A DNA stretch of 64,000 nucleotides from Halorussus vallis (GTDB taxonomy: Archaea > Halobacteriota > Halobacteria > Halobacteriales > Haladaptataceae). The stretch covers positions 62,001 through 126,000 of the forward strand of contig NZ_CP100001.1 of assembly GCF_024138165.1 (NCBI RefSeq), written 5' to 3'. Below, piece after piece: positions 32,957 through 51,033 of this stretch; positions within the stretch are counted from its first letter, which is position 1; every line of letters starts with the position of its first letter. The position numbers and the translations under genes are program-made. Below the pieces are notes generated by a model. The model worked only from the letters and a program-made list of their open reading frames with translations, had not been told where the DNA came from and did not search any database.

Positions 32957-34123
32957 TCAGAACAGCGGGTCGAGTTCGCCGTCATCGTCCTGAATCAGTT
33001 CCGTGGTCTGCTGTTGGCTCTCCTCGCGGATGCCGGTGATGTTGTCCTGGGTTTCGACCGCAACCTCCTGGAGTTCCTGGACGCGGGGGACGCTGGAGAC
33101 GCCCGACAACAGGACGACGCCCGAAACCTGCTGAGCGTCGCCGATGGGGTAGTCGCCGCCCCGGACCTCCATGCTCCCCGTCTCCCGTTCGAGCCACTTC
33201 CGCCCGCGCTCGACGCCCTTGCGGTCGAGGTACTTCGGCGGTCCGCTGGCGACGAACAGCGAGCGGTCGGCGCTCTCGATGTCGCAAGGGAGGGTGAGAC
33301 GGCCGAGCGCCGCCTTCCGGACCAGGCTGGTGATGCGGTTTGTCGCGTGAGTCGCGTCGACCTCGTCGTCGCTCTTAAACCGCGAGAGCAGGCCCGCGCC
33401 GCTGTTCTCGACCTCTTCGGCGGCGTAGCCGATGGTCGAGACGCCGCCGGTACCCAGCGTGTTGATGATCTCGCTGGAGTCGACGACGCTCTCGCCCACG
33501 GCGTCGCCGGGGCTCACCTCGCCGGCGCCGAACAGCAGACCGAACCGCCGGACGATCTCCTCGTTGATGCGGTCGTAGCCGTGTTCGACCGACTCGTTGG
33601 ACTTCCGCCAGGCGTCGTTGTCGAACACCAGCAGGTTGTCAACCTCGCGAACGAACGTCTGGAACGACCGCGCGGCGTTCAGCGTGTAGATGCCGCCCTC
33701 GTCGCGACCCGGCAGGACGCCCAGTCCGTACACCGGTTCGGTGTAGATGCGCTTCAAGTACTTCGCTATCACCGGCGCGCCGCCCGACCCGGTTCCGCCG
33801 CCCATGCCGGCCACGATGAGGAACGCGTCGATGTCGTGGACCGGGACGTTGTCGACGGCGCCCTGGATCTCGTCGATGTCCTCCTCGGCGATTTCCGCGC
33901 CGAGTTCGTTGTCGGCTCCGACGCCGTGACCTTTGACCCGCGACTGACCGATGAGCACCTGATTCTCCTCGGGGACGTGCTCCAGGCCCATCAGGTCGGC
34001 CTTCGCGGTGTTGACCGCAACCGCCGACCGCACCGTCTGACTGCCGGTCCGCCGGTCGTACTCCAGGAACTTGTCGACGATCTTGCCGCCGGCCTGCCCG
34101 AAGCCGACCATCGCCAGTTTCAT
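32957..34123 (-). CDS. cetZ: Tubulin/FtsZ-superfamily protein CetZ
   Basis: 388 residues from ATG 34123 (MKLAMVGFGQAGG); an in-frame earlier codon at 34156 adds eleven non-conserved residues. Nucleotide-binding pieces are GFGQAGGK (7-14), VNTAKADL (38-45) and the tubulin signature GGGTGSGG (108-115). FDNDAWRKS and YDRINEEIVRRFG belong to the T5-T7 region. CetZ proteins are cytoskeletal GTPases of haloarchaea that control cell shape and motility rather than division. The C-terminus ends in a variable acidic tail with ELDPLF. Which CetZ paralogue this is cannot be decided here. Confidence 0.92.
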   Translation of the reverse strand: MKLAMVGFGQAGGKIVDKFLEYDRRTGSQTVRSAVAVNTAKADLMGLEHVPEENQVLIGQSRVKGHGVGADNELGAEIAEEDIDEIQGAVDNVPVHDIDAFLIVAGMGGGTGSGGAPVIAKYLKRIYTEPVYGLGVLPGRDEGGIYTLNAARSFQTFVREVDNLLVFDNDAWRKSNESVEHGYDRINEEIVRRFGLLFGAGEVSPGDAVGESVVDSSEIINTLGTGGVSTIGYAAEEVENSGAGLLSRFKSDDEVDATHATNRITSLVRKAALGRLTLPCDIESADRSLFVASGPPKYLDRKGVERGRKWLERETGSMEVRGGDYPIGDAQQVSGVVLLSGVSSVPRVQELQEVAVETQDNITGIREESQQQTTELIQDDDGELDPLF

Positions 34124-34541
34124 CGCCGACCCTCCGGTCGCCGTAGTCGATGCCAAACGTCCGCTTCGATACTGCCTGTAACCGCCACAGGCACCCCGTG
34201 CTGTCTGGTATGCATTCCGTAGCCCCCGAAGTTCGACACCACGGCCGACGGTATAAACCCAACAGACGGTTTTGTCGAGTCAGGGACCTGTCGGTCGCGT
34301 CAAGGGGTGCGTAACCGACGCACGAGCGCGACCTTCGGGCCGTGGCGCGTCGACGCGGGCAGTCCGGTCGCTGTACCGAGTCGGTGTGTCGGCGAGGAAA
34401 CTCTACGTCCTGGAGTACGCGCTCGTCGGCACAGTGCGCCTGTTCGTTCGTCCGACGTGCGGCGACGGTCGCCGCACGTCCGATTCGACGCCCGGAAGAA
34501 TCACGCTAGCTTCGGCGTGGCCGGTTTCGACCGACTTCGCG
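34124..34541. other. Intergenic region upstream of cetZ, 418 bases
   Basis: It holds a 13-bp-arm inverted repeat at 34454-34480, near the 3' end of the frameshifted membrane protein gene, and the cetZ promoter zone just above 34123. No gene is supported; the plus-strand open frame at 34272-34736 is a shadow. Confidence 0.5.
34454..34480. repeat. Inverted repeat, 13-bp arms
   Basis: gacgtgcggcgac and its reverse complement flank one base. It sits about 60 bases past the stop of the minus-strand membrane gene and may be its terminator hairpin. Confidence 0.75.
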
Positions 34542-43065: not shown

Positions 43066-43089
43066 CCACTGTAGTTGGGAGTAGCATTC

Positions 43090-44100
43090 ATGTCAGGAAG
43101 ACCCAAACTCAAGGTCGGCGTCATCGGTGGCGGCTACATCGGCACCACGGTCGGACAGCTATTCAATCAGGACCCGCGAGCGACGGTGACCGCGCTGGCC
43201 GACGTCAGCGAGGAGGTCCAGCACACGGCGGGCGAGCAGTTGTACGTCGGCGAGGGCTCCCGGTACGACGACTACCAGGAGATGCTCGACACGGAGGAAC
43301 TCGACGCGGTGCTGGTCGGCACGCCCCACACGTTCCACCACGAGCACGTGACCGCGGCGCTCGACCGGGGCCTGCACGTCCTCTGCGACAAACCGCTGAC
43401 GACCGACCTCGAAGAGGCCCGGGACCTCGCGGAACGCGCCGAGTCGGGCGACGAGGTGCTGATGGTCGGCTACCAGCGCCACCTCAATCCCGCGTTCGAG
43501 ACGGCCCGCGAGCGGTTCCGCGACGGCGGCAACCCGCAGTTCATCAGCGCCGAGATAACCCAGGATTGGATTCGCCGGTTCGAGGACACATGGCGGACCG
43601 ACCCCGACCTCTCCGGCGGCGGGAACCTCTACGACACCGGGAGCCACCTCATCGACGCCGTGCTGTGGACGACCGGGCTGACCCCCGCCTCGGTGTCGGC
43701 CGAGATGGTGTTCGCCGACGAGGAGTCGCGGGTCGACGAGCGCGCCATCCTCACCGTGGAGTTCGAGAACGGCGCCGACGCGACCATCTCGGTCCACAGC
43801 GACGCGCCCTGCGTGCGTGAGCACATCCACATCTGGGACGAGGAGGGTGCGGTGTACCTCGAAGGCCGCCAGTGGGAGGAGCGCGAGATGAGCGAGATAC
43901 AGGCCGACAGCACCACGGTCATCCCCTTCATCGACCGCGACGACCAGCGCAACAAGGCCGAGACGTTCGTCGACTGCATCGAGCGCGGCGAGGAACCGCC
44001 GGCGACCGCCCGTGACGCCCTCGCCGTGACCGCGCTGACCGAGGCGGCCTACGAGTCGGCCCGGAGGGAAGAGCGGGTGCCGGTGGGACTCGACGAGTAG
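43090..44100 (+). CDS. Gfo/Idh/MocA-family NAD(P)-dependent oxidoreductase
   Basis: 336 residues. The Rossmann loop is GVIGGGYIGTTVG (residues 9-21). CDKPLTTDLEEA is the family EKP-type motif with the catalytic-region Lys, and GGGNLYDTGSHLIDAV holds the Asp-x3-His segment of the active site. The C-terminal domain has the large beta sheet typical of the family. Likely substrates are sugars, inositols or related polyols; none can be named. The only sugar-related genes near it are at 45-50 kb on the other strand. Confidence 0.92.
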   Translation: MSGRPKLKVGVIGGGYIGTTVGQLFNQDPRATVTALADVSEEVQHTAGEQLYVGEGSRYDDYQEMLDTEELDAVLVGTPHTFHHEHVTAALDRGLHVLCDKPLTTDLEEARDLAERAESGDEVLMVGYQRHLNPAFETARERFRDGGNPQFISAEITQDWIRRFEDTWRTDPDLSGGGNLYDTGSHLIDAVLWTTGLTPASVSAEMVFADEESRVDERAILTVEFENGADATISVHSDAPCVREHIHIWDEEGAVYLEGRQWEEREMSEIQADSTTVIPFIDRDDQRNKAETFVDCIERGEEPPATARDALAVTALTEAAYESARREERVPVGLDE

Positions 44101-44958: not shown

Positions 44959-46620
44959 TCAGTCCGCGCCGATTCCGCTCACGACTTCGCGGACCGCGCG
45001 CTTCGTCTCGACCTTCCCGTCGTAGTGGTCGTACGTCGCGTCCTTCGAGATTACGTCGGTCCGGACGTCGCCGTCCATCTCCTCGGGGACCGGCACGTCG
45101 AGCAGCGAGAGCGCTGTCGGCGCGAAGTCGGTGAGGTCGACCGTCATCCCGGAGTCGTTCTTGACGGGACCGCCCCAGCCGTAGAAGATGCCGTGCATCT
45201 CGTTCATCGAGGTGTGCGACCCGGTCTTGGGCGGGTCGGCGAACACCCGCTCGGTCTTCATCGTCTGGGGGTACTGAATCTGGTAGCCCGGCGCGGGCAT
45301 GCAGACGAGGTCGGGGCGAGTGCCCTCGTAGCCGTCGTCGTAGACGTCCTCGCCGTACAGCACCGAGTCGATGACCCGGTCGCCGCGCTCGGGGTGCTCG
45401 ATGGCGAGTAGTTGCTCGCGCAGGGCCTCCCGGACGGCCTCGTACTGGTCGGGCGACACCGCGCCCTCCTCGTGGTCGTCGGTGTTGATGTAGATTTGAC
45501 CGCCGGAGGCCACCGTGAACGCCGCGGTTCGGCTCCACTCGATGTCCTTGCGGGAGATGGTCAGCAGTTCCGCGAGGTCCGGCCCGGAGCCGTCGCCGCT
45601 GGTGCGGGCGACGCCCATCTTGAGCTTCGAGAAGAGGTTGAGTTCGCTCATCGCCTTCTCGACCGCGTCGTAGACGTAGTTGTAGCCGAACTGCTTGAGC
45701 CTCGTCCACGCCCGGTCTTCGAGGTCGAGGTAGTTCGCGTTGTAGAGCCAGGAGTTGAGGTTGATGGTCTGGTAGACGGGGCCGTGGCCGTGGTCCGACA
45801 GCACCAGCAGGGTGTCCTCTTCCTCGTCGAGGCGCTCCATCGTCCACCCCAGCAGTTCGTCGTACAGCTCCAGCAACTGCATCGGCCTGTCCTCGTGGCG
45901 CGACGCGACCTCGGGGTCGTGCTTGGGGTGTTGCTCGTCGAGCACGTGGCCCAGCACGTGGAGGACGTTGTCCGGGCCGGAGAACACCAGCGAGTAGAAC
46001 TCGCAGGGGTACTCCTCGACGAGGAGCTTCGCGACCTCGATTCGCTTGCGCTCGATCTCGAAGAAGTTGTCGAGCAGTTCGCCGAGGTTCTCCTCGTCGG
46101 TGCCGTCGTCGTAGCTCTCGTAGGGGTCGACGTCGTACTCGCCCACCCGCTCCTCGATGTCGGCCTGGAGTTCGTCGGGGAAGGCGTACGACCCGGTCGA
46201 GGGCGTGGTGATGTTGTCCGAGATGTGGAACCCGCTGGTCTGCGAGGGCGGGTAGCCCGGCATGACGTTCATCACGCCCGAGCGCTTGCCCTCGGCGTCG
46301 AGGTATTCCCAGACGGTCTTGGACTTCTCGCGGAGGGTGTCGGCGTTGACGAAGTTGGTGCCGTACTCGCCCTCCTCCTTGAGCATGAAGTTGTAGACGC
46401 CGTGATTGCCGGGGTTGCGACCCGTGGCGAACGAACTCCAGGCGATCATCGACAGCGGCGGCACCGTCGAGCGGGTCCGGCCGTCCGCGCCCTCGGCACG
46501 CATTCGCTCGAAGTTCGGGAGTCGGCCGGTCGCGATGCCGCGGTCGACCAGTTGGGGCGGCACGCCGTCGAGACCGAAGATGACGACCCGACCGTCGTCC
46601 GGCTGCGTTCCCTCGCTCAT
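44959..46620 (-). CDS. Alkaline phosphatase-superfamily phosphodiesterase/nucleotide pyrophosphatase
   Basis: 553 residues, no signal peptide. VVIFGLDGVPPQLVDRG has the first metal Asp; PPLSMIAWSSFATGRNPGNH has the nucleophile region; LLVLSDHGHGPVYQ (Asp-His-x-His) and a late GSHTSMNEMHGIF give further metal ligands, the arrangement of type I phosphodiesterases. Likely hydrolyses phosphodiester or pyrophosphate bonds of sugar nucleotides or lipid-linked intermediates, a guess supported by the adjoining glycosyltransferase gene. Its ATG overlaps the stop of the 76-residue gene by four bases (ATGA), so translation is probably coupled. Confidence 0.88.
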   Translation of the reverse strand: MSEGTQPDDGRVVIFGLDGVPPQLVDRGIATGRLPNFERMRAEGADGRTRSTVPPLSMIAWSSFATGRNPGNHGVYNFMLKEEGEYGTNFVNADTLREKSKTVWEYLDAEGKRSGVMNVMPGYPPSQTSGFHISDNITTPSTGSYAFPDELQADIEERVGEYDVDPYESYDDGTDEENLGELLDNFFEIERKRIEVAKLLVEEYPCEFYSLVFSGPDNVLHVLGHVLDEQHPKHDPEVASRHEDRPMQLLELYDELLGWTMERLDEEEDTLLVLSDHGHGPVYQTINLNSWLYNANYLDLEDRAWTRLKQFGYNYVYDAVEKAMSELNLFSKLKMGVARTSGDGSGPDLAELLTISRKDIEWSRTAAFTVASGGQIYINTDDHEEGAVSPDQYEAVREALREQLLAIEHPERGDRVIDSVLYGEDVYDDGYEGTRPDLVCMPAPGYQIQYPQTMKTERVFADPPKTGSHTSMNEMHGIFYGWGGPVKNDSGMTVDLTDFAPTALSLLDVPVPEEMDGDVRTDVISKDATYDHYDGKVETKRAVREVVSGIGAD

Positions 46621-46847
46621 TTTTCGAGGTACCCCAGCTGTTCGAGGCGGTCCTCGACGACTTCGTCGTCGGCGCTCTCGTCGGTGCTGCCGGTCGCGCC
46701 GGCGCTCCCCTCGCCGCGTTCGAGTTCGGCGGCGGTCTCGGCGAGCACGTACCGCGCCAGTTCGTCGGCGTCGGCGAAGCCGTCCAGTTCGGTCGCGAGT
46801 CGTCCGTAGCGGTCCCGCAGGTCGGCGGGGAGTTCTATCGATGTCAT
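46617..46847 (-). CDS. 76-residue acidic protein coupled to the phosphodiesterase
   Basis: The N-terminus TSIELPADLRDRYGRLATEL and helix to about 40 resemble a small DNA- or protein-binding helical module. A disordered Gly/Ser/Asp linker (about 47-62) leads to EVVEDRLEQLGYLEK. The ending RLxxLGYLE is one I know from the C-termini of sulfatase/phosphatase-like haloarchaeal proteins, so this may be a detached accessory piece of its neighbour. It has a 4-base overlap with the enzyme gene and a 1-base gap from the GT2 stop. No family name. Confidence 0.75.
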   Translation of the reverse strand: MTSIELPADLRDRYGRLATELDGFADADELARYVLAETAAELERGEGSAGATGSTDESADDEVVEDRLEQLGYLEK

Positions 46848-46848
46848 G

Positions 46849-47619
46849 TTATCGTCCCTTGGTCTGAGAGGTCAGCGGTTGGCGTCGTCTGGCGAGCCGT
46901 ACCAGAAACAGCATCACGGTCAGCCCGTGCTTTATCGGGTTGTACGTCTGTCCTTCGAGGTCTTCGTAGCGCGCCTCGATGGCGCGCTCGGTGATCTCGA
47001 GCCCCTCTGTGGTGGCCGAATCTATCATCTCGGACTCGACGCCCATCCCGTCGGTCGTGAGCGAGATGCGTTCGAGCGCGTCGGGGGAGAACGCCCGGTA
47101 GCCGCTCTGGGTGTCGGTGAGTTCGGCGCCGGTCACCTGCGAGGTGGCGTAGTCGAGAAGCTGCTGGCCGAGTCGTCGGTAGATGGGCGTCTCGTCGCCG
47201 TCGTCGGTGTCGAGGTACCGACTCCCGATGACCATGTCGGCGTCGCCGTCGACGACCGGCCGCGCGAGCGTCGGGATGTCGGCGGGAGCGTGTTGGCCGT
47301 CGGCGTCGATGAGCACCAGCGCGTCGCACTCGACGCCCTGGACGTGCTCGAAGAGGGTCCGAACCGCGGCGCCCTTTCCGCGGTTGCGTTCGTGGCTGAG
47401 GACGGTCACGTCGGCCTCCTCGAGGATGGCGGCCGTCCGGTCGGTACTACCGTCGTCGACCACCACGACCTCGTCGGCGTACTTCTTGACGCCGAGCACG
47501 GTGCTTCCGATACCGTTCTCCTCGTTGTAGGCCGGAATGCCGACGACCACCCGCCCGTCGAGGTGGTCGTCGGCGACTGCGTCGGCCGACGTCCCACCCT
47601 CGGCAACCTGTAAGCTCAT
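46849..47619 (-). CDS. Family 2 glycosyltransferase (dolichyl-phosphate sugar synthase-like)
   Basis: 256 residues. VVVGIPAYNEENGIGSTV opens a GT-A fold, VVVVDDGSTDRTA binds the nucleotide, LVLIDADGQHAP has the D-x-D metal site, and GSRYLD with DTQSGYRAFSPDAL forms the acceptor side. This is the polyprenyl-phosphate mannose/glucose synthase pattern (AglJ/AglD-like). No membrane helices beyond a C-terminal hydrophobic patch (GLTVMLFLVRLARRR). It heads a minus-strand unit with the 76-residue protein and the phosphodiesterase. Confidence 0.9.
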   Translation of the reverse strand: MSLQVAEGGTSADAVADDHLDGRVVVGIPAYNEENGIGSTVLGVKKYADEVVVVDDGSTDRTAAILEEADVTVLSHERNRGKGAAVRTLFEHVQGVECDALVLIDADGQHAPADIPTLARPVVDGDADMVIGSRYLDTDDGDETPIYRRLGQQLLDYATSQVTGAELTDTQSGYRAFSPDALERISLTTDGMGVESEMIDSATTEGLEITERAIEARYEDLEGQTYNPIKHGLTVMLFLVRLARRRQPLTSQTKGR

Positions 47620-48395
47620 GATTCCGTCACCTTAGTCGAACGTTTCCGCTCCCTTTGTTCTCCAGACCCTATAGGAGCCGTAGCGTCTCTTTGGCGGGAG
47701 ATAGGCCGGGAGTACGGCGGTCGTGTGGGTCAGCGTATCCGGATTCAGGGCCGGCGTCCCGTTGTCGTTTCGCAACGTTTCGTCCCGACTAACTCGGCTC
47801 GCCGGTAAAACGTAGTCCAGCTAACGGTTTTTTCAGCCGGAAGCGGGTGACTACCCAGTGGTGTGAGGGCGTCTACCGTGCGTCTCAGTCCCGCACGAGT
47901 GCGGGAGCACCGTGACCGCGTCCGAGGCGTATCGGACGCCAGCGGAGGGCCGGGACCTGTCGGGCGAGCGTCACGGAGGACGCGCAGGCGTCCGCCGTGA
48001 ATCGCCTGCGCGTCCGGCGGGCATCGCCCGCCGGACGCGCGACCGGGTATTCGGCAGGGGGAATCCCGGCCGGACCGGCCGATGAAAGTCGGCCGGCCTA
48101 TCCGGTACCGGGGGTGAACGAGAGACAGCAGACGAACGAGTCGCTGGCGCGCGGCGTCGACCCGGCGAACCGAGTGGCGGAATGGACGTCGAACGGGAAG
48201 AGCGGAGGGAACGCGGACGTACAGAGAGCGGTAAGAACGAGGAAGCGCGGAGAGAGCAACGGAAACGTCGGAGCTGAGAGGACGAGAGAATGAAGGAGGA
48301 GGTGAACGCAGAAGCGATGAAAGAACCGGTAAGACGGAAGCGAAACCAGAAGTAGAACGTCGGCAGCGACCCGTCGAGACGTTCGCGCCGCGGTG
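47620..48395. other. Gene-free region with alternative hairpins and a purine-rich tract, 776 bases
   Basis: No supported gene. The hairpins are at 47978-48040. From about 48116 to 48360 the plus strand is very purine-rich with many gaa/gag repeats. The minus-strand transcript of the GT4 gene would therefore pass into a long pyrimidine-rich tail. An open frame at 47997-48293 is Arg-rich, unlike the acidic proteins of this genome. Confidence 0.55.
47978..48040. repeat. Two mutually exclusive hairpins sharing one arm
   Basis: Segment 48003-48015 can pair with 47978-47990 (13 bp, 12-base loop), or the overlapping segment 48008-48022 can pair with 48026-48040 (15 bp, 3-base loop). Both pairings are perfect and cannot form together. 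Confidence 0.8.
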
Positions 48396-49325
48396 CTACA
48401 GCACCGTCTCGTAGACCCCGCGGATGCGCTCGCCCATCCGGGCGAGGCTGATGTCTTGAATCGCCTCCCGGCCGTCCGAGGGTCGCGGCTCCTCGAGGAT
48501 GTCGACCAGTCCCTCGACGAGTTCGTCGTCGGTCCGGCCCACGTAGGAGGGCGAGGCGTCGGTCAGCCGGTCGCTGACGTCGCCCACGTCGGTCGAAACC
48601 ACCGGGAGGTTACAGCTCATCGCCTCCTTGACGGAGTTGGGCGACCCCTCGCGCTTGGAGGTCAATAGCAGCGCGTCGGCGGCGTTCATGTAGGTCGCCA
48701 CCTTCGCGTGGGGGACGCCGTAGATCGTCTGGAGTTCGACGTCGGCGTCGACGCGCTCGCTCGCGCGGTCGACCACCCGCCGTGCGCGCGGATGGTCCTT
48801 GACCTCCTGTTCGGGGGGATAGGGGAAGAGGACGTGGCGTTTGTCGGGGTCCCACTCCACCTCGGCGCGGGCCTCGTCCTTGGGCCGGGGCGCGAACCGA
48901 TCCATGTCGATGCCGTGGGGGATGACGTGGCAGGGTTCGCCGAGTTCCCGGGCCATCTCGTCGGACATCACGATGACCGCGTCGCACTGCTTGGCGCAGA
49001 GCTTGCTGAGCCAGCCGTACTCGCCCATCAGGTCGGTCCCCCACAGCGAGAGCACGACCGGCAGGCGGGCCTGCGCCAGCGCCATCGGCGCGGTCAGTCC
49101 GTAGTTGGCGTGGACCAGGTCGTAGCCGTTCGTCGACTCCCGCATGACCTGCGGGAAGAACTTGGCGTAGTCGCTCGGCGACCGACTCGAATCCTCGTAG
49201 CCGACGTGATTGCCCGGTGGCGCGATGGTCGAACAGTCCACGTCGAGCGTTTCGAGGGTCTTCGTCTGCTGTTCGAAGAACCTCGCGTCGGCGTTCGACG
49301 CGAGGTTGAGCACGTTCACCGTCAT
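48396..49325 (-). CDS. Family 4 glycosyltransferase
   Basis: 309 residues, somewhat shorter than usual GT-B enzymes. N-terminal half: VLNLASNADARFFEQQTKTL, then DLVHANYGLTAPMALAQARL and VVLSLWGTDLMGEYGW. The second half has VIPHGIDMDRFAP, a nucleotide-sugar segment and LLLTSKREGSPNSVKEAMSC plus NLPVVSTDVGDV, which is the E-x7-E signature region. Retaining sugar transfer with UDP- or GDP-sugars is expected. Its start overlaps the stop of the DUF354 gene by four bases, indicating coupled translation. Confidence 0.9.
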   Translation of the reverse strand: MTVNVLNLASNADARFFEQQTKTLETLDVDCSTIAPPGNHVGYEDSSRSPSDYAKFFPQVMRESTNGYDLVHANYGLTAPMALAQARLPVVLSLWGTDLMGEYGWLSKLCAKQCDAVIVMSDEMARELGEPCHVIPHGIDMDRFAPRPKDEARAEVEWDPDKRHVLFPYPPEQEVKDHPRARRVVDRASERVDADVELQTIYGVPHAKVATYMNAADALLLTSKREGSPNSVKEAMSCNLPVVSTDVGDVSDRLTDASPSYVGRTDDELVEGLVDILEEPRPSDGREAIQDISLARMGERIRGVYETVL

Positions 49326-50458
49326 CGTTTCCCGCCGTCGCTTCTGAGCGTTCCGGTGCCGAACGGGAGCGTCCGGCCGCCGCCTTTCGACCCGCGCCGG
49401 GTGATCGACTCGACGCGCTCGGGGTGCTCTACGTTCTCGGCCACGTCGAGGATGACCTCGGTGAGGTTCACCTTGTCGGCGAGGTACTCTTCGCGGCGCT
49501 CCGCCCAGCGGTCGGCCGCCTCGGGGTCGGCCAGCACCTCGTCGGCGGTTTCGAGCACCTCGTCGAACTCGGCGAGGTTGTGTACCAGTCCGGCCTGCTC
49601 CAGGTCGACGAAGTTGCCCATGTCGTCGTCGCCGACGAACGAGTTCGAGCGAATCGCGGGCGTCCCCAGCAGCGCGGCCTCCGTCACCATCGTCTGGGTG
49701 TCGGCGACCAGCAGGTCGGCCTCCGCCAGCGCGTCGTGCAACAGCGCGGGGTGGAGGTCGAACTCCCTGGCCGACGTCTCCTCGACCACCATGTCACCGC
49801 CCTCGTCGGAGACGAAGACCGTGGCGTGCTCCGAGAGGGTTTCGACCAGTTCGCGGCGCTTCGCGGGCGAGAATCCGCCCTGGCCCACGTCGTGGTGGGA
49901 GCCGAAGGCGTTGAACCGGAGGATGGCGTACTGCTCGTCGTCGGCCACGCCGAGTTTCTCGCGGATGTCGGTCGCGGATTCGTAGGCGTCGGGGTGGAGG
50001 TAGGCGCACTCCTTGAACCCCCGGAACTCCCAGTGTTTCTCGCCCAGGTCGCGGCCGAACGTGTGCGGGGTGACGATGAGGTTGATGAACGGCAGCGAGA
50101 CGGTGTGGTCGAGGCGGGTGAGCGCCGTGTCGTCGACGAGGACGACCGGGGTCCGGGACACCGCGCCTGCCAGCGCCGCGAACGACCCGATGCCGAAGAT
50201 GTAGTCGGGCGAGAACCGGAGCGTCTTGGCGAAGATGGTGAGGTAGTGCTTGGGGAGTTCGCGGGCGAGCGAGGATTTCTTGGTTTCGACCCGGCCGTAC
50301 AGTTCGTAGGGGAGTTCGTGGTAGTCCAGAAGCGCCTTCGTGCAGCCGTAATCGCGGGCGAGAACGAGGACCTCGTGGCCCCGCTCTTCGAGTGCCGCGA
50401 CGGCGTGTCGATACTGGTGGACCTGCGCGGGAGTGTTGGTGAAGAACAGGTACTTCAT
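49322..50458 (-). CDS. DUF354 family protein (GT-B-like)
   Basis: 378 residues from ATG 50458; the extra 27 residues from 50539 are basic and not conserved-looking. KYLFFTNTPAQVHQYRHAVA and ALEERGHEVLVLARDYGCTK begin a Rossmann domain. FGIGSFAALAGAVSRTPVVL, then VFVSDEGGDM and ADLLVADTQTMVTEAALLGT in the C-terminal half match DUF354, which belongs to the UDP-GlcNAc 2-epimerase/GT-B superfamily. Enzymatic role in archaea is not established; surface polysaccharide synthesis is the usual context. First gene of the GT4 unit. Confidence 0.88.
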   Translation of the reverse strand: MKYLFFTNTPAQVHQYRHAVAALEERGHEVLVLARDYGCTKALLDYHELPYELYGRVETKKSSLARELPKHYLTIFAKTLRFSPDYIFGIGSFAALAGAVSRTPVVLVDDTALTRLDHTVSLPFINLIVTPHTFGRDLGEKHWEFRGFKECAYLHPDAYESATDIREKLGVADDEQYAILRFNAFGSHHDVGQGGFSPAKRRELVETLSEHATVFVSDEGGDMVVEETSAREFDLHPALLHDALAEADLLVADTQTMVTEAALLGTPAIRSNSFVGDDDMGNFVDLEQAGLVHNLAEFDEVLETADEVLADPEAADRWAERREEYLADKVNLTEVILDVAENVEHPERVESITRRGSKGGGRTLPFGTGTLRSDGGKR

Positions 50459-50701
50459 GCTCTTTCCCTCGTGGTCGACCGTCCGCTCTTCGACGTTGCT
50501 CGGGCGGCCATTACGGGTGACGACCCGCCGAGCGGCCATTGTTATACGCCGCCTGAATCCCGTATCGGTGTCCGAAACTGTCCGGGAACCGAACCGTCCG
50601 ACCCGCTCTGCCTACAAAAAGTACATCCAATTGGAATATTTCTCCCGAATACGTAGCTAACGATAGTGTCGAATCGGGGAACCGTTCTTAACGGCCAACA
50701 A

Positions 50702-50739: not shown

Positions 50740-51033
50740 ATGCACGACCTGACTGGTTTCCAGCGGGATCTCCTGTACGTCATCGCCGGCAGGGACGAGC
50801 CTCACGGACTCGCGATCAAGGAGGAACTCGAAAACTACTACGAGAAGGAAATTCATCACGGCCGTCTGTATCCGAACCTCGACACGTTGGTCGAGAAGGG
50901 CCTGGTCGAGAAGGGCCAGCGCGACCGCCGGACCAACTTCTACGTGCTGACCGACCGCGGCACCCGCGAGATTCAGGCCCGCCGCGACTGGGAGAGCGGT
51001 CACCTCCACGAGGAATCCTCGGTTTCGGTCTGA
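50740..51033 (+). CDS. PadR-family transcriptional regulator
   Basis: 97 residues: a winged helix with LTGFQRDLLYVIAGRDEPHG, then LAIKEELENYYEKEIHHGRL and YPNLDTLVEKGLVEKGQRDR, and the wing NFYVLTDRGTREI. The YPNLDTLVEKGLVEK helix-turn is the haloarchaeal form of PadR. The large C-terminal dimer arm of classical PadR is short here. It is divergent from the DUF354/GT4 unit (50458), so it could regulate it, itself or both. Partly inverted cgatagt and actatca words lie in the space between. Confidence 0.9.
   Translation: MHDLTGFQRDLLYVIAGRDEPHGLAIKEELENYYEKEIHHGRLYPNLDTLVEKGLVEKGQRDRRTNFYVLTDRGTREIQARRDWESGHLHEESSVSV

Follow-up and report, generated by a model that had tools for sequence, protein, structure and literature searches.

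A small gene beside an alkaline phosphatase-superfamily enzyme of Halorussus vallis appears to encode the C-terminal tail of that enzyme's family

In a 64,000-nucleotide stretch of the Halorussus vallis genome (positions 62001-126000 of a 557-kb contig, hereafter the window), five genes encode a DUF354-like protein, two glycosyltransferases (GT4 and GT2), a protein of 76 amino acids (aa) and a phosphodiesterase-like enzyme (PDE) of the alkaline phosphatase (AP) superfamily. Sequence comparison gives good support to a new feature of this block: the C-terminal tail of the neighbouring enzyme's family, with the motif RLxxLGY, is encoded by the separate small gene. A preliminary description of this DNA gave the small gene no role; the 76-aa protein is the main point of our analysis. 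The tail protein and the enzyme likely work as a split enzyme. In our preferred reading, to which we assign a probability of about 0.5, the block contains a cytosolic AP-superfamily enzyme that probably transfers sulfo or phospho groups to glycans and whose tail would be supplied in trans by its 76-aa partner.

We compared 13 orthologues of the 76-aa gene, that of the window included. The overall ratio of nonsynonymous to synonymous substitution rates (dN/dS) is 0.41; on the dN/dS values we rejected the view that the gene is meaningless filler. By part, residues 1-44 have a ratio of 0.43 and residues 61-76 one of 0.04, against 1.19 in the linker. Loose searches found the RLxxLGYL ending also at the C-terminus of haloarchaeal PDEs, sulfatases and other small proteins. 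We define here a detached-tail family, in which an N-terminal part is followed by an RLxxLGY tail at the very end of the protein and the gene lies beside that of an AP enzyme. A profile of 11 such small proteins has matches with an E of 0.01 or less in 178 of the class's 194 genomes, some of these matches possibly being only the tails of larger proteins. The predicted model of the 76-aa protein (mean predicted local distance difference test, pLDDT, 75) has helices at residues 8-20 and 27-46 and no called strand. No Pfam family matched the protein at E 0.01; no solved relative was found by sequence (best E 0.049, to hibernation factors), nor by fold at E 0.001, in both cases among the families listed. 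We found no publication on the tail motif together with a sulfatase in the open-access literature, and do not claim that the tail protein is unpublished; by term counts, "phosphodiesterase" and "hypothetical protein" are absent from a paper on sulfate in ANME (anaerobic methanotrophic) archaea.

In the window enzyme, residues D18, S57, D217, H221, D276 and H277 fall at conserved columns in two alignments of relatives, and we take them to be the two-metal ligands and the Ser/Thr nucleophile; the third His is probably H469, in a shifted position. The window clade carries Ser (PPLSM, window 46447-46461) where aligned relatives with the tail in cis carry Thr, the presumed nucleophile. Against the phosphonoacetate hydrolase family PhnA (TIGR02335) the enzyme scores 29.3 bits, under the cut-off of 407.55. 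Across 72 PDEs from bacteria and archaea, L537 of the tail is invariant and L540, G541 and Y542 are conserved at 90% or more, comparable to the catalytic positions. In the AlphaFold model of a fused relative (L236; L and G numbers are our handles for loci and genomes), residues 1-510 adopt the nucleotide pyrophosphatase/phosphodiesterase (NPP) fold, with a best Z of 28.4, and the tail forms a helix at 527-539.

To see how the tail is distributed, we sampled the enzymes in several ways. The PDE-first sample was chosen by hand, disregarding the small gene, among the PF01663 matches listed in 44 genomes; listed matches were taken where their open frames are long, and 20 further regions were added, the later of them mainly short-form or low-scoring. 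Of the 96 PDEs, we left out 12 as short-form and 4 as low-scoring; 80 long-form PDEs remained, or 82 with the window PDE and its orthologue in G009. For later counts the tail pattern was widened to take DMGYLE and DIGYLE ends (L097, L122, L157). Long-form haloarchaeal PDEs bear their own tail in 78 of the 80 cases (78 of 82 with the two additions). A small tail protein is encoded beside three of the four tail-less long-form PDEs versus within 1 kb of none of the 78 cis-tailed ones (Fisher p 4.5e-5, two of the four, those of the window and G009, being orthologues). Across all frames of these loci, the tail ends 90 of 108 AP-superfamily frames versus 7 of 8636 others, and these seven are three AP-type frames judged by their letters, two CysD-like proteins, one small tail protein and one case of noise. 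The tailed frame 757 nt from L112/9523 is of AP type and not small. Two frames that are AP-type by their letters and unmatched by two profiles (L112:10685-12070 and L110:12409-13920) also end in the tail (EEKLGALGYL). The short-form PDEs form a clade without a tail of their own (12 of 12), and near two of them lies a CysD-like gene that carries the tail (L148 at 1 nt, L116 at 694 nt).

In the sulfatase-first sample (each third row of the match list plus extra regions, some repeating PDE-first loci), the tail occurs in 39 of 49 AP-superfamily frames versus 7 of 3450 others, and 38 of 46 sulfatases carry it in cis, leaving 8 tail-less. A named set, made of relatives scoring 200 bits or more among the best 80 loci of a scan (n = 99; L288/2640, below 200 bits, left out), has 85 cis-tailed members, many from Chloroflexota, Zixibacteria, Armatimonadetes and others, and 14 tail-less PDEs, six of them of the window type with a small gene. 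Starting from the small gene instead, we hand-picked 19 loci among the matches listed for the small-protein profile. An AP-superfamily enzyme lies within 9 kb in all 19, within about 1 kb in 10 and at about 2-3.3 kb in the others, versus an arithmetical expectation of about 4% from the 11 PDE and 7 sulfatase matches in the 5.05 Mb of the window genome. The nearest enzyme is tail-less in 16; it is tailed in L171 and L177, and cut and weak in L185.

We also reconstructed a tree of 109 catalytic domains by maximum likelihood, excluding the tail. Fifteen of 124 sequences were left out as a duplicate copy, fragments, sulfatase-like or low-scoring NPP-like matches. The split state requires three changes on this tree, two of them forced by starred branches; long branches are flagged, L184 included, and we do not claim the exact number. 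The split clades are the window clade with L040 and L181, L133 with L187, and L184. The small gene lies upstream on the same strand in the window clade and in L184, and is convergent with a 4-nt overlap in L133 and L187.

The same tail appears in proteins of sulfate activation. Archaeal CysD, subunit 2 of sulfate adenylyltransferase, ends in KLRALGYM (L325, L327, L321); the L325 protein is identified by NCBIfam, and its end aligns with the end of the solved CysD 1zun_A. Five loci of other families have the small gene doubled (L321, L324-L327), and three of them hold CysD. In a family of the same phylum (f21), which seems Archaeoglobi-like from its gene content, the small gene lies within a few kb of a tail-less PDE in 8 of 12 loci, L312 being cut by a contig end. 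The kinase of adenosine 5'-phosphosulfate (APS) follows the enzyme in 7 of these 8, L316 being left out, and a DHH phosphoesterase gene lies between the small gene and the enzyme in six, together with ATP sulfurylase in two. Gene identities in f21 come from Pfam or NCBIfam for L309, L314 and L318 and from likeness of the first residues for the rest. The run of small tail protein, in some cases ATP sulfurylase, DHH protein, tail-less PDE and APS kinase was seen at L318:4165-7253, L309:2481-4676, L314:178-4427 and similar loci. Within such a run the PDE occupies the place expected of a sulfotransferase that uses 3'-phosphoadenosine 5'-phosphosulfate (PAPS). In the account of PMC10322725, a methanogen DHH protein encoded next to the ATP sulfurylase and APS kinase genes is a phosphatase of 3'-phosphoadenosine 5'-phosphate.

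In haloarchaea, a tailed CysD-like protein adjoins a tail-less PDE in L148, L116 and L341-L346, the last six having been chosen since their coordinates already showed such pairs. This CysD-like gene (PAPS_reduct) lies upstream of a tail-less core PDE in L341 (3446-5950), L342, L343 and L148, and head to head with it in L344-L346. The L341 protein scores under the CysD cut-offs. In L348 a CysD-like gene is present with no PDE within its 9 kb.

Several observations weigh against our preferred reading. The tail region of the L236 model reaches only 71-77 pLDDT. L168/3798 is tail-less without a small tail gene and lies convergent with a tailed enzyme; likewise no small gene lies within about 1 kb of six of the eight tail-less sulfatases, only L216 and L206/3842 having one, or within 1 kb of eight of the 14 tail-less PDEs of the named set. 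Conversely, cis-tailed enzymes lie near a small tail gene in L271 (123 nt away) and L171, in L070, L071 and L077 the small gene is flanked by two sulfatase-like genes, one with the tail and one without it, and in L325, L327 and L321 small proteins are encoded near a CysD that keeps its own tail. As for sulfotransfer, the window genome has no match to ATP sulfurylase, CysD or APS kinase. Neither ATP sulfurylase nor APS kinase was matched in 11 of 12 congeners searched, the exception being G007, which has both; CysD had no match in any of the 13 Halorussus genomes searched. The adjacent ATP sulfurylase and APS kinase genes of G007 (G007:C1:692847-693976; L349, L356) are the sole such pair in these 13 genomes. 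The control match lists of the ATP sulfurylase and APS kinase searches do not contain Haloferax volcanii either, and its glycan, in the passages of PMC11980604 concerned, becomes sulfated once the organism is given Agl30 or Agl31. Since Hfx. volcanii sulfates without listed donor-enzyme matches, their absence from the window genome is not decisive.

The CysD results suggest another explanation, which we regard as possible but rather doubtful: the tail may be a docking motif for a third protein of the sulfate-activation and glycan-modification machinery, with the 76-aa protein as adaptor or competitor and no need for contact with the PDE. The matching ends of archaeal CysD and the small proteins that adjoin ATP sulfurylase and lie near CysD fit this proposal. 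It accounts less well for the small gene lying directly beside a tail-less PDE at three positions of the tree or for the window genome, in which ATP sulfurylase and CysD have no match; moreover, the catalytic-like conservation of the tail, bacteria included, equally fits a part of the enzyme.

The preliminary description had taken the co-translated GT2 and AP-superfamily enzyme to suggest coupled making and trimming of a phosphate-linked glycan. On such a reading the enzyme would hydrolyse a sugar, linked through phosphate or sulfate, that its own operon makes. The NPP fold of the relative and the retained catalytic positions are compatible with hydrolysis, but the enzyme has no membrane-like segment and nothing specific to hydrolysis, and the AP-superfamily proteins that we found described as role-tested for a haloarchaeal glycan cluster, Agl30 and Agl31, are transferases that add sulfate (as presented in PMC11980604). 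Coupled making and trimming thus lacks support, and we consider a hydrolase unlikely here.

A further reading, more improbable still, makes the 76-aa protein a transcription regulator of glycan or sulfur genes of the ribbon-helix-helix type, its tail a sensor or a coincidental likeness. In its favour, the N-part looks like strand-helix-helix by eye, with the two helices and no called strand in the model; fold matches include NikR (43 columns, root mean square deviation 1.8, E 8.8) and the DinJ-YafQ complex, all weak and non-significant; and among 11 members there is one weak HTH_63 match and one to DUF7557. Against it, basic residues are mostly missing from the strand segment (L043 and L047 have an Arg there), the constraint is on the tail and not on the N-part, the gene sits within the enzyme's gene group, and no ribbon-helix-helix family appears in the Pfam matches of the 11 members (E <=5, HMMER filters dropping most above about 0.1), for which reason we rejected a DNA-binding regulator as first choice.

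Returning to a split enzyme with its tail in trans, we propose that the GT2, judging from its family, charges dolichyl phosphate with a sugar, and that the PDE-like protein would be a cytosolic AP-superfamily enzyme altering the growing lipid-linked sugar, an added sulfo or phospho group being likelier than trimming. The 76-aa protein would be the enzyme's partner, its N-part binding the enzyme and bringing the tail to the position that it takes in the fused form. This position might be beside the active site, as with the neighbouring subunit in choline sulfatase, or on some partner common to both forms. Through translational coupling, the GT2, the tail protein and the enzyme would stay in proportion. 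Agl30 and Agl31, the sulfate-gene neighbours and a sulfated sugar on dolichyl phosphate make sulfotransfer our first guess, a reasoned one, for the window enzyme. We further speculate, as a tentative idea that we ourselves think unlikely, that the RLxxLGY tail may be a common tag of sulfate-handling proteins of archaea and bacteria (CysD, AP "sulfatases" and "phosphodiesterases" of glycan clusters, and small proteins that provide it in trans to tail-less enzymes) and would link the making of the donor with the transfer of the group. The Halorussus block would then be a trans form whose AP enzyme sulfates the dolichyl-phosphate-linked sugar from the co-translated GT2.

The analysis confirms the block and its conservation. 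The gene set and labels given previously are borne out by domain searches, and the open reading frame (ORF) coordinates agree with the reported junctions on a single strand: 4 nt shared by the DUF354 and GT4 genes (49322-49325), 1 nt between the GT2 and 76-aa genes (46848) and 4 nt shared by the 76-aa and PDE genes (46617-46620). The preliminary description did not mention the 776 nt between GT4 and GT2 (Table 1), where ORF choice by third-position G+C content (GC3) and acidity selected no gene; the block thus consists of two groups, each translationally tight, on the same strand. A hydropathy scan showed no membrane-like segment in any of the five proteins.

Table 1. Block genes, conserved neighbours and other features, in window coordinates.
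Feature	Position	Strand	Basis
DUF354-like protein, GT-B type glycosyltransferase or epimerase-like	49322-50539 (50458, the start given previously, is an internal ATG)	-	PF04007 28.3 bits, cut-off 22, weak; 13/13 genus loci
GT4 glycosyltransferase	48396-49325	-	PF13439, PF13692, PF00534 above cut-off; 4-nt overlap with DUF354 gene
Intergenic gap, 776 nt, dividing the block in two	47620-48395	.	no coding-like ORF
GT2, dolichyl-phosphate-sugar-synthase-like, no membrane-like segment	46849-47619	-	PF00535 108 bits; hydropathy
76-aa protein with a helical N-part that may be ribbon-helix-helix-like, a neutral linker and a conserved tail	46617-46847	-	
Tail of the 76-aa protein, codons 61-76	46620-46667	-	dN/dS 0.04; also ends AP-superfamily enzymes and archaeal CysD
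AP-superfamily type I phosphodiesterase-like enzyme, without the family C-terminal tail	44959-46620	-	PF01663 140 bits, cut-off 23
PadR-like regulator, divergent, conserved neighbour	50740-51033	+	PF03551; 13/13 genus loci, divergent in 12
Gfo/Idh/MocA oxidoreductase, convergent, conserved neighbour	43075-44100	+	PF01408; 13/13 genus loci

The PDE is present in 12 of 17 Halorussus congeners at 81-84% identity, and the order DUF354-GT4-GT2-76aa-PDE is kept in all 13 loci of these 12. The PadR gene above the block is on the same strand as the block in one locus, L037; the Gfo/Idh/MocA gene below it lies at most about 2.4 kb from the enzyme and is in two pieces in L032. The GT4-GT2 gap is about 240 nt at its shortest and about 4.1 kb at its longest, with inserts of about 2.5 kb or more in three of the 13 loci (L028, L037, L039). 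The insert of one congener (L028:7174-9317) holds two genes on the strand opposite to GT4 and GT2, an extra GT2-like one and a second DUF354 gene. In another, two block copies with equal match scores (L030 and L031, G002:C2) lie about 383 kb apart on a contig of 427 kb; they may stem from an overlap in the assembly of a circular replicon. A gene for a CetZ tubulin-like protein (window 32957-34156; PF21011, 272 bits) occurs in 8 of 13 congeneric stretches around the block.

Outside the genus, one genome of a sister genus (L040, L223) has only the GT2 (38% identity), the 76-aa gene and the enzyme among the block genes found, and Haloprofundus marisrubri (L233) has the 76-aa gene and the enzyme alone, with a weak GT2 match more than 7 kb off. 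This reduction points to the 76-aa gene and the enzyme as the core pair. Conservation of the five-gene order, suggested earlier as a check, thus stands within Halorussus and does not extend to the two outside loci examined; a five-gene island general to haloarchaea is rejected, DUF354 and GT4 being joined to the rest within the genus only. Among 63 same-strand neighbours of homologues in chosen, named loci, Polysacc_synt (7), MurJ (5), LPG_synthase_TM (5), Glycos_transf_1 (6) and Glycos_transf_2 (6) recur. With the conserved order, these glycan-type neighbours support the earlier view of a conserved surface-glycan unit with an AP-superfamily enzyme.

Haloarchaeal genomes are rich in genes for AP-superfamily sulfatases and phosphodiesterases, and two such proteins were recently shown to add sulfate to glycans. 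If the tail, fused or separate, is essential, tail-less enzymes expressed alone may be inactive, the small, uncharacterised proteins encoded next to them can be tested as subunits, and glycan sulfotransferases can be sought by the sequence of the tail. The natural split also lets the tail be removed or swapped with the enzyme untouched, a clean route to its function.

Among known systems, we compared the window GT2 with AglJ-type enzymes, since AglJ (TIGR04182) is its best NCBIfam match, yet at 135.1 bits it lies below the cut-off of 325; the dolichyl-phosphate hexose transferase family NF041391 gives 74.5 bits, under 375, and the GT2 is under every NCBIfam cut-off listed, the nearest being AglJ-type and other lipid-phosphate sugar transferases. 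In Haloarcula hispanica, according to the relevant parts of PMC9943897, a GT2 makes a dolichyl-phosphate-linked sugar, and a sulfated hexuronic acid is carried on dolichyl phosphate. The window enzyme resembles the NPP/phosphonoacetate hydrolase family (PF01663) in its fold, seen in a relative, and in its catalytic positions; the solved NPP relatives listed span model residues 1-511 and do not cover the tail. CysD resembles the 76-aa protein, as its archaeal C-terminal residues match the tail, but unlike the window enzyme it has a different catalytic domain and makes APS. Agl30 and Agl31 (VNG1056C and VNG1057C) of the Halobacterium salinarum aglB cluster are presented in PMC11980604 as sulfotransferases of the N-linked tetrasaccharide, Agl31 being soluble. 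They share with the window enzyme an AP-superfamily core and a place in a haloarchaeal glycan gene group, but they are sulfatase-like and the window enzyme belongs to PF01663. About 20 kb either side of aglB in six Halobacterium genomes, all seven AP frames carry the tail in cis, and Agl30 and Agl31 themselves were not identified among them; these frames come from four genomes (L330, L331, L333, L340), the other two, one cut by a contig end, having none. An analogue for the tail is found in the choline sulfatase of Sinorhizobium meliloti, also of the AP superfamily. In the sections of PMC5870055 that treat it, the C-terminal tail is part of the active site of the neighbouring subunit, and the delta-12 variant loses 2.5e3-fold in kcat/KM; unlike the window pair, this enzyme is a hydrolase whose longer tail, of three helices, belongs to the same chain.

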